Below are positions 5,570 to 46,380 of a stretch of 64,000 nucleotides of DNA, piece by piece (position 1 is the first letter of the stretch; the number at the start of each line of letters is the position of its first letter). A program made the position numbers and the translations under genes. The DNA comes from Exiguobacterium profundum (GTDB taxonomy: Bacteria; Bacillota; Bacilli; Exiguobacteriales; Exiguobacteriaceae): NCBI RefSeq assembly GCF_001909285.1, contig NZ_MRSV01000001.1:2683340-2747339 (forward strand). The letters run 5' to 3'. The notes below the pieces were generated by a model. It was given only the letters and a program-made list of their open reading frames with translations. It ran no database searches and was not told where the DNA came from.

Positions 5570-5587
5570 CTCGGTCTTTAGACTGAG
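5570..5587. promoter_or_regulatory. LiaR-box-like dyad
   Basis: CTCGGTCTTTAGACTGAG is an 18-bp inverted repeat with one mismatched arm position. Its centre is about 66 bp upstream of the expected liaI start, and its other edge lies only 3 bp from the -35 of the divergent rsgA-type gene. Binding of LiaR is inferred from position and symmetry. Confidence 0.55.
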
Positions 5588-5590
5588 ATG

Positions 5591-5618
5591 TTACCGTTTC
5601 CAATAACTGTGGTACACT
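5591..5618 (+). promoter_or_regulatory. Promoter of the rsgA-type gene
   Basis: A -35-like TTACCG (5591-5596) and a -10 TACACT (5613-5618) are 16 bp apart. The LiaR-box-like dyad abuts the upstream edge. Confidence 0.4.
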
Positions 5619-5650
5619 AATGCTATCGAACAACGAAAGGATGATGTTTT

Positions 5651-5719
5651 ATGAGCAACATGATGCATGCACGTAACCAAATGTCAGCAAATCGGAGGGC
5701 TCTCGTCCTCCATCACTAA
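5651..5719 (+). CDS. Possible 22-residue leader peptide ORF upstream of rsgA
   Basis: ATG at 5651 opens a 22-codon frame (MSNMMHARNQ...) ending TAA at 5717-5719, with GAAAGG 10 nt before the ATG. Its last third lies over GGAGG (5694-5698), which can pair with CCTCC (5707-5711); the same CCTCC could instead pair with the AGGAGG ribosome-binding site of the following gene at 5721-5726. This arrangement resembles leader-peptide translational attenuators. Whether the peptide is made is unknown; a second overlapping ATG at 5641 opens an 11-codon frame. Confidence 0.35.
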   Translation: MSNMMHARNQMSANRRALVLHH

Positions 5720-5733
5720 AAGGAGGATTCTTT

Positions 5734-6699
5734 TTGAATCAACAAACTGAAACGGGACGTGTCACGGCACAGTTCCAACATCTTTATACGGTATCAATCG
5801 GAGAAAACGCCTATATGTGCGGGGTTTCCGGAAAATTTCGACATGCCGCGACGAGCGAACGGGATTACCCGGTCATCGGCGATTATGTCACGATTCAAGT
5901 TCGCGAGCATGGTCAAGGTACGATTCACCATCTCCTTGAGCGTCGGACCGTTCTTTCACGAGCGGCCGCCGGCAACGAGACACGTGAACAACTGATCTGC
6001 GCGAACGTCGACTACGTCTTGATTACGATGGCGTGTGGACACGACTTCAACATTCGTCGCCTAGAACGCTATACGCTAGCCGCTTGGGACACCGGGGCAA
6101 TCCCAATCATCGTCTTGACAAAGACCGATCAAGTCGACTCCGTCGACACATTGCTCGAAGACATTCAAGTGAACGCACCTGGAATTCAAGTATTCCCCGT
6201 CAGTGCTGTAACGGGAAAAGGTGTGGCTGAACTTCGTCACGCATTGCCGAGTGAGAGCACGATCGCCTTCGTCGGTTCGTCCGGCGTCGGAAAATCTACG
6301 CTGACGAACGCCCTCGCCCACGAGACACTTGCCGTCACACAAGCCGTCCGGGCGCAGGACGAGCGCGGAAAACATACGACGACACACCGCGAACTGTTCC
6401 GAATCGACGACTTATACGTCATCGACACACCAGGGATGCGAGAATTCGGACTATGGGAAGGAAGCGAGCACCTCGATGAGACGTTTCGCGATATCGAAGC
6501 ACTTGCCGAGACATGCCGCTTCCGCGACTGCTCACATCAGAAAGAACCGGGCTGTGCCGTCCAAGAGGCACTCACGAGCGGTACGCTAGATGCGAAACGC
6601 TATGCTAGCTACGTCAAACTTGAGCGAGAGCTTCTCTATATGGAGAAAAAACAGGCAGAACATGCCCGCGTCCTAGAAAAGAAGAAAAAGCGAGTGTAA
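5734..6699 (+). CDS. rsgA: Ribosome small subunit-dependent GTPase A (RsgA/YjeQ family)
   Basis: A 321-residue circularly permuted GTPase: N-terminal OB fold (about 1-75), then G4 (LTKTD near 128), G1 (GSSGVGKST near 182) and G3 (DTPGMREFG near 232), and a C-terminal zinc knuckle with C-x-C/H/C residues (CRFRDCSHQKEPGC). RsgA helps mature the 30S subunit. Start is TTG at 5734, 7 nt after AGGAGG. It stands alone rather than beside prkC/prpC, where the housekeeping Bacillus cpgA lies, so it may be a second paralogue; its divergence from the lia promoter hints at a stress link. Confidence 0.9.
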   Translation: MNQQTETGRVTAQFQHLYTVSIGENAYMCGVSGKFRHAATSERDYPVIGDYVTIQVREHGQGTIHHLLERRTVLSRAAAGNETREQLICANVDYVLITMACGHDFNIRRLERYTLAAWDTGAIPIIVLTKTDQVDSVDTLLEDIQVNAPGIQVFPVSAVTGKGVAELRHALPSESTIAFVGSSGVGKSTLTNALAHETLAVTQAVRAQDERGKHTTTHRELFRIDDLYVIDTPGMREFGLWEGSEHLDETFRDIEALAETCRFRDCSHQKEPGCAVQEALTSGTLDAKRYASYVKLERELLYMEKKQAEHARVLEKKKKRV

Positions 6700-36540: not shown

Positions 36541-36820
36541 GCCATGAAAAAAAGCCCTCCATTCCCATCGAACATGGGACGGAAGACTTCGGTTCCGCGG
36601 TGCCACCCAAATTAGTAGACGAATCTACTCACTTTTTCGAGACAATCATCTCGTAACTCCGATAACGGGGAGCGGTCCGGCTACGTCTACTGGCAAAGCG
36701 TTCGGGTAGCGACTCCAGGAAGTTTTTCGACGAAGGGTTAAGACCGGGCTCACACCACCCCCGGATCGCTTGGCTCACTACCTTCGTGTACTCGTCCTTT
36801 CGACGTCGTTCACAATTGAA
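36541..36820 (-). promoter_or_regulatory. T-box riboswitch, Asn-specific, of asnA
   Basis: On the minus strand GGGTGGCACCGCGG (36595-36608) is the T-box sequence that pairs with uncharged tRNA acceptor ends. A terminator stem (GCCCTCC...GGAAGAC, 36554-36588) with a U-tract at 36547-36553 follows. Stem I extends from about 36817; its specifier loop carries AAC (plus 36737-36739), an asparagine codon, matching asnA. Uncharged tRNA-Asn would favour read-through. Confidence 0.92.
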
Positions 36821-46217: not shown

Positions 46218-46291
46218 GCGGGTGTAGTTTAATGGTAAAACCTCAGCCTTCCAAGCTGATGACGAGGGTTCGATTCCCTTCACCCGCTCCA
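46218..46291 (+). tRNA. tRNA-Gly (anticodon TCC), copy 1
   Basis: 74 nt with encoded CCA. Acceptor GCGGGTG pairs with CACCCGC; the anticodon loop CTTCCAA sits between CAGC and GCTG; the T-loop TTCGATT lies in a GGG/CCC stem. The D-loop lacks one residue, as usual for tRNA-Gly of this group. Confidence 0.97.
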
Positions 46292-46306
46292 TATTTTTTC
46301 TTTGAT

Positions 46307-46380
46307 GCGGGTGTAGTTTAATGGTAAAACCTCAGCCTTCCAAGCTGATGACGAGAGTTCGATTCTCTTCACCCGCTCCA
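46307..46380 (+). tRNA. tRNA-Gly (anticodon TCC), copy 2
   Basis: Same as copy 1 except one T-stem base pair: GAGAG/CTCTT instead of GAGGG/CCCTT, a G-C to A-T compensatory change. Encoded CCA at the end. Separated by 15 nt from copy 1. Confidence 0.97.

Follow-up and report, generated by a model that had tools for sequence, protein, structure and literature searches.

A probable ribosome-governed attenuator in the leader of a second RsgA-family GTPase gene of Exiguobacterium

Translational attenuators of the ermC and cat type combine a leader ORF with an arm complementary to a Shine-Dalgarno sequence (anti-SD arm), and the SD is free or not depending on where a ribosome stands on the leader. 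The macrolide arrest motif has a wider form, +X+. In passages of PMC6310831, ermC is mentioned as a case of translation attenuation and an RLR leader motif is reported, while a passage of PMC8632094 places the motif uORFC-6-1, related to rli80, before hflX in Bacillales. Within the open-licence papers surveyed, those on Exiguobacterium leader peptides included, no report was found of a leader or attenuation for RsgA. The proposal of the first-pass annotation, that attenuator logic is known as a class but undescribed for rsgA, agrees with this survey.

The locus studied here lies in a window of 64,000 nucleotides from Exiguobacterium profundum. The downstream gene had been taken as rsgA, encoding a ribosome-assembly GTPase, and its assignment to the RsgA family stands, as the protein has an RsgA GTPase domain with a C-terminal Cys/His cluster; this cluster and the GTPase motifs are invariant across 19 aligned rows. 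It is, however, not the canonical copy but a second paralog, designated RsgA2. Two RsgA-like genes are present in 19/19 genomes of the window's genus, and the other copy in the window genome shares only 36% identity with the window copy. In a tree of 44 selected RsgA proteins, canonical (n = 16) and second copies (n = 28) form separate clades at 100/100 support.

Matches to RsgA2 at E 1e-48 or better were found in 187 of 398 genomes sampled from the class and in 65 of 145 genera, the 38 genomes of the family included. Using the canonical copy of the window genome as a query, canonical RsgA was detected beside RsgA2 in 12 of the 14 genomes with named loci and was not found in the other two, both alphaproteobacterial. 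The alphaproteobacterial RsgA2 genes L163 and L168, where no canonical RsgA was found, are preceded by SD-led upstream ORFs of 19 and 17 codons. RsgA2 starts with TTG in 38/38 genomes of the family and at 64 of 85 other loci taken as Firmicutes, compared with 17/88 neighbouring genes; among genes sampled from the window genome, 44/291 have a TTG start. The kept weak start may perhaps itself be regulatory.

A divergent lia-type operon lies upstream of rsgA2. It encodes a LiaF C-terminal domain and an lmo0954-family membrane protein, both above the cut-off, while LiaS- and LiaH-like matches stay below it. Elsewhere in the window, at 36572-36812 (minus strand) and 46218-46377 (plus strand), a match to the T-box family of Rfam (RF00230, 104.8 bits) and a pair of tRNA genes were noted. 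Features of the rsgA2 leader are as follows.

5570-5587, no strand assigned: possible operator, an inverted repeat (CTCGGTCTTTAGACTGAG) that separates the leader from the divergent lia-like operon; few changes across 19 aligned genomes of the window's genus.
5610-5618, plus strand: candidate extended -10 element TGGTACACT of the rsgA2 promoter; TGTGnTAYACT in 16/19 aligned genomes of the window's genus.
5636-5641, plus strand: SD of the leader ORF, AAAGGA; invariant in 19/19 genomes of the window's genus.
5651-5719, plus strand: leader ORF of 22 codons, MSNMMHARNQMSANRRALVLHH, from ATG at 5651 to TAA at 5719; length kept in the genus, codons under constraint.
5694-5700, plus strand: arm 1, GGAGGGC, the anti-anti-SD, codons 15-17 within the ORF tail; from sequence and folding models.
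5705-5711, plus strand: arm 2, GTCCTCC, partner of arm 1 or of the rsgA2 SD, within the ORF tail; from sequence and folding models.
5720-5726, plus strand: arm 3, the rsgA2 SD, AAGGAGG; from sequence and folding models.
5734-6699, plus strand: rsgA2, a second, diverged RsgA-family GTPase of 321 aa with a TTG start; TIGR00157 at 176 bits, PF03193 at 2e-48.

The inverted repeat could serve as a response-regulator operator for one or both of the flanking genes. The candidate extended -10 element was not reported by a consensus promoter scan.

The 22-codon frame with its own SD, ending over a GGAGG...CCTCC hairpin, can be read directly from the sequence, as had been described, and so can the alternative pairing of the CCTCC arm with the rsgA SD, formed here by GTCCTCC at 5705-5711 and AAGGAGG at 5720-5726. 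In the window, the leader stop directly precedes the rsgA2 SD and is 14 nt from the rsgA2 start. Such an arrangement is infrequent in the genome: in a 464-kb sample, 197 genes have 130 nt or more of upstream sequence, and 12 of them are preceded by an SD-led ATG uORF of 12-35 codons that ends at most 30 nt from the start. Only rsgA2 among those 12 has a uORF tail folding at -12.4 kcal/mol, the next value being -10.4. Taken over its full 131 nt, the leader shows no unusual stability (z -0.74; equalled by 42 of 200 shuffles), so the evidence lies in the arrangement of the arms and its conservation. Searches of the leader peptide against Pfam and NCBIfam gave no match, and no Rfam match was obtained in RsgA2 leaders (window and 19 loci at the gathering score, 20 loci by E-value).

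Conservation was assessed in 38 genomes of the order, comprising one family with two genera, the window's genus (n = 19) and a sister genus (n = 19). Both the small frame and the pairing arms, whose conservation had been put forward as a check, proved to be kept: an SD-led leader ORF occurs in 38/38 genomes, and 37 of the 38 leaders have the three arms, against 8/2280 shuffles (0.35%). For this comparison, an arm complementary to the SD core and an ORF arm pairing with it were sought, with a stem of at least 7 pairs and wobble allowed; the only family leader missed (L034) has a stem of 6 pairs. Stem flanks vary by lineage and mostly still pair, the first inner pair being G-U, G-C, A-U, U-G or U-A. 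Close spacing between stop and start is likewise kept across the 38 genomes.

In the window's genus, the leader ORF has exactly 22 codons in 19/19 genomes and the peptide follows the pattern M-S-[TN]-x8-S-A-N-R-R-A-x-V-L-[HQ]-x, without the R/K-X-R/K macrolide arrest motif in any of the 19 peptides. Codons 3-11 evolve neutrally (pN 0.397, pS 0.451), while codons 12-22 are constrained in frame (pN 0.077, pS 0.397), a signal absent in shifted frames. Codons 12-17 have no amino-acid changes despite synonymous ones, codons 12-14, which lie outside the hairpin, vary only synonymously, and CGG/AGG and AAT/AAC variation preserves Arg and Asn. Constraint on codons 15-21 may be partly due to the hairpin itself. 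The in-frame constraint on the tail argues for translation of the leader ORF. In the sister genus, an SD-led leader of 21-22 codons is present in 19/19 genomes, with the rsgA2 SD just past the stop, and its peptide ends in QGGVSLP in 18 and in KGGIRLP in one (L034). No peptide common to both genera was found. Thus, between genera the peptide has changed while frame, position and arms have stayed, and there is no single drug-sensing arrest sequence in common.

Effects of ribosome position were modelled by rigidly masking a 32-nt footprint and refolding the leader at equilibrium, which ignores co-transcriptional folding, timing and unwinding by ribosomes. With the P site at codons 12-14, the core of the rsgA2 SD is predicted to be at most 0.21 unpaired in 38/38 leaders because arm 2 pairs with the SD, a pairing that averages 0.80-0.92 at codons 12-13 in both genera. 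For the window's genus, placing the P site at codons 8-9 lifts predicted arm 1:arm 2 pairing to 0.94-0.97, compared with 0.56 in the naked leader, and the SD becomes about 0.55 open on average instead of 0.25. When the P site reaches about codons 15-19, the ribosome covers arm 2, and renewed opening of the SD is predicted in this genus (0.40-0.59), so a stall there could induce too; past about codon 19 the modelled ribosome itself covers the SD. In the sister genus, openness of the SD is about 0.6 even in the naked leader and hardly increases with an early ribosome; an effect of early stalling is therefore predicted chiefly for the window's genus. Mutually exclusive structures are predicted, which expose or hide the SD in the family and the terminator in the terminator-type relatives. 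The earlier suggestion that a ribosome on the leader frees or masks the rsgA SD is in line with these predictions, but a simple cat-type order is not, since a ribosome over arm 1 masks the SD.

Outside the family, 40 loci were chosen for closeness and variety from 149 genomes with an RsgA2 match, and a further 80 were the best 80 of 586; neither set is random. Distinct non-Exiguobacterium loci taken as Firmicutes on the basis of their record titles, several of them MAGs, amounted to 102. Of these, 85 had a callable RsgA2 start; the counts exclude the other 17, in which no RsgA2 start was preceded by an SD with at least 5 matches. Two pairs of duplicates (L096 and L062, L131 and L085) are present in the three-arm counts and in an initial antitermination count and were removed from the uORF and terminator counts.

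The three-arm arrangement was detected in 12 of 81 leaders of other Firmicutes (11/79 without duplicates), compared with 6/4860 shuffles, and 69 of the 81 lack it. A search for 6 perfect pairs without wobble gave 9/81 against 5/4050 shuffles; the wobble-allowing version with 7 pairs was preferred because the stems of the family contain a G-U pair. The twelve loci include Halobacillus, Pontibacillus, Lentibacillus, Ornithinibacillus, Peribacillus, Anoxybacillus and two clostridial MAGs. In the nine relatives inspected, the leader stop is followed by arm 2 at a distance of 3-14 nt; in Exiguobacterium, arm 2 is part of the ORF. Seven of the relatives (L073, L107, L112, L121, L133, L134 and L150) are predicted to be closed when naked (0.00-0.10) and partly opened, to 0.24-0.80, by an early ribosome at codons 1-4 or about 8-12. 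The other five (L085, its duplicate L131, L120, L135 and L167) are predicted to be more open when naked (0.36-1.00) and closed by a late ribosome. Such predicted ribosome-dependent opening and closing would follow an erm-like logic. As a separate observation, L055, L059, L071, L074 and L104 have an anti-SD stretch in leader tails with TCCTCCTT, and for three of them (L055, L059 and L074) folding predicts that this stretch pairs with the SD of the leader ORF, which suggests a different wiring. By eye, no such pairing between tail and leader SD was seen in the window's genus.

These relatives also bear on translational coupling, by which a terminating ribosome or its 30S subunit would reinitiate at rsgA2 while the hairpin limits backward movement, so that leader translation switches the gene on. 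The stop directly before the SD, 14 nt from the start in the window, and the close spacing in 38 genomes make reinitiation possible in Exiguobacterium, where it could act in the opposite direction to attenuation. However, the leader stop is 28-77 nt from the start in the three-arm relatives and many other RsgA2 leaders end farther upstream, so close coupling is not the common feature; coupling also gives arm 2 no need to match the SD. We consider it an unlikely explanation.

Of the 85 loci, 83 have 150 nt or more of upstream sequence. In 51 of these 83, RsgA2 is preceded by an SD-led ATG uORF whose SD has at least 5 matches, compared with 2 of 63 neighbouring genes; a terminator is found in 53/83 against 8/63, and a uORF followed by a terminator in 41/83 against 1/63. 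Several loci are close relatives, so these counts are not independent events. Terminator-type relatives are mostly predicted to be closed when naked, so absence of a ribosome would not act alike in the two leader types. Of 42 terminator leaders, 21 are closed when naked and brought below a predicted terminator probability of 0.3 by a ribosome, compared with 7/168 shuffles, and in 20 of these 21 the opening occurs with the P site within codons 1-7. In total, 23/42 fall below 0.3 with a ribosome, including the 21 closed when naked, and 19/42 never do. An initial antitermination count (23/43 against 7/258 shuffles) was set aside, as its shuffles had been scanned at every second codon only, which favoured real leaders.

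Beyond Firmicutes, a uORF precedes RsgA2 in 2/5 loci and neighbouring genes in 2/3, with ORFs longer than 35 codons left out and too few loci for the comparison to carry weight. Cyanobacterial RsgA2 genes (L100, L102, L103, L109, L110 and L122) follow ORFs of 30-42 codons that have strong SDs and in several cases start MTEL, MTEF or MTVF; these ORFs are possible leaders outside Firmicutes.

Product feedback would have RsgA2 or a 30S-related factor bind the leader hairpin and repress its own translation, like some ribosomal proteins. Arm 2 resembles the anti-SD at the 3' end of 16S rRNA, and a passage of PMC6912228 reports that RsgA contacts h44 near h24 and h45 of 16S rRNA. On the other hand, feedback leaves the kept ORF, its in-frame constraint and the ORF-plus-terminator leaders of relatives unexplained, and no known leader family was matched in Rfam; this mechanism is accordingly quite improbable. 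Hardly any more credible is an incidental ORF, with the hairpin merely a stabiliser or insulator beside a strong SD: the ordinary overall fold (z -0.74) and the neutrally evolving middle of the ORF would suit it, but the constant 22 codons in 19/19 genomes, the unchanged amino acids of codons 12-17 amid synonymous changes and the SD-led ORFs before RsgA2 in other Firmicutes do not. An amino-acid-starvation attenuator sensing charged tRNA-Arg through tandem Arg codons (CGG or AGG, then AGG) can practically be dismissed, for although R15-R16 is invariant in 19/19 genomes of the window's genus, the residues encoded over arm 1 in the sister genus are Q-G-G, or K-G-G in one case, no common arginine pair is seen by eye in other Firmicutes leaders, and rsgA2 is not an arginine gene.

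We therefore favour the reading in which the leader is a ribosome-governed translational attenuator of rsgA2, and regard it as likely. Its anatomy, its conservation, the in-frame constraint on the tail and the predicted shifts in pairing are the established part of this reading, whereas translation of the ORF, ribosome stalling as the natural signal and the sign of the response in vivo are what we infer. In the proposed mechanism, the arm 1:arm 2 hairpin in the last leader codons would occupy the anti-SD and leave the rsgA2 SD free. A ribosome with its P site near codons 11-14 would cover arm 1 alone, so that arm 2 swings onto the SD and rsgA2 is shut, and a ribosome at the end of the ORF would sit on the SD. 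Normal passage of ribosomes through the leader would thus keep rsgA2 low, and SANRRA (codons 12-17) probably sets the dwell time over arm 1. With ribosomes stuck before about codon 10, the arm 1:arm 2 hairpin would instead be able to form, and translation of rsgA2 would follow.

The most economical sign would be that ribosomes failing to advance through the leader switch rsgA2 on, although the folding models do not force it, given the predicted openness at codons 15-19 and the already open SD of the sister genus. The openness at codons 15-19 together with the fair shuffle control weakens this choice a little. Failure of translation in the leader would then turn on the accessory RsgA, in other Firmicutes through a three-arm SD switch or a terminator/antiterminator. 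Judged from the leader sequences, RsgA2 probably represents an accessory RsgA that ribosome-mediated attenuation controls; the control point would be a terminator in many relatives, and the SD in Exiguobacterium as well as in some others. The extra RsgA2 presumably helps 30S subunits or ribosomes under translational stress.

A link of RsgA2 to translation inhibitors is plausible. According to a passage of PMC12445079, B. subtilis without its canonical CpgA is modestly more sensitive to chloramphenicol and linezolid, and a study of organisms that produce protein-synthesis inhibitors lists rsgA in one of its tables, among translation genes (PMC9290621). Counting against the link, RsgA decreased in chloramphenicol-treated Enterococcus faecium, and the same source cites higher resistance of S. 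aureus after deletion of RsgA; these passages of PMC12441150 do not speak of a second paralog. A broader and more tentative idea, which we hold to be somewhat doubtful, is that RsgA2 is an inducible ribosome-protection or rescue factor, a 30S counterpart of HflXr. Ribosomes held at the leader start, by a drug or by defective subunits, would lift attenuation, RsgA2 would restore 30S function at the decoding centre, and the leaders would form a sequence-diverse sensor of early arrest across Firmicutes and perhaps cyanobacteria. The leaders mark a separate RsgA clade as probably translation-responsive and make its function testable; once it is found what lifts attenuation, the role of RsgA2 should follow.

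Compared with known systems, canonical RsgA/CpgA (YloQ, YjeQ) has the RsgA GTPase domain, GTPase motifs and Cys/His cluster in common with RsgA2, but RsgA2 forms its own clade and coexists with the canonical gene in 19/19 genomes of the window's genus. Attenuators of the ermC and cat type share with the window leader the leader ORF, the anti-SD arm and control by ribosome position. They differ in that the window leader has only three arms and its SD becomes masked, not freed, when a ribosome covers arm 1; moreover, rsgA2 is not a known resistance gene and no drug-arrest peptide is conserved family-wide. The vmlR leader of Bacillus subtilis, according to PMC9226507, likewise precedes a chromosomal ribosome factor and combines transcription and translation attenuation, but vmlR belongs to a different gene family (ABC-F). 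The nearest precedent is HflXr (lmo0762) with rli80 in Listeria monocytogenes, a second HflX under leader-ORF attenuation (PMC6310831). There, too, an extra paralog of a ribosome-acting GTPase exists beside the canonical copy, and a short leader ORF is combined with alternative RNA structures, of the terminator type as in many RsgA2 relatives. HflXr is nevertheless a different GTPase, RsgA2 acts on the 30S subunit, the window switch is placed at the SD and not at a terminator, and there is no RLR motif in it. Accessory copies of ribosome GTPases may, as this parallel suggests, commonly serve as a strategy of stress response or resistance.
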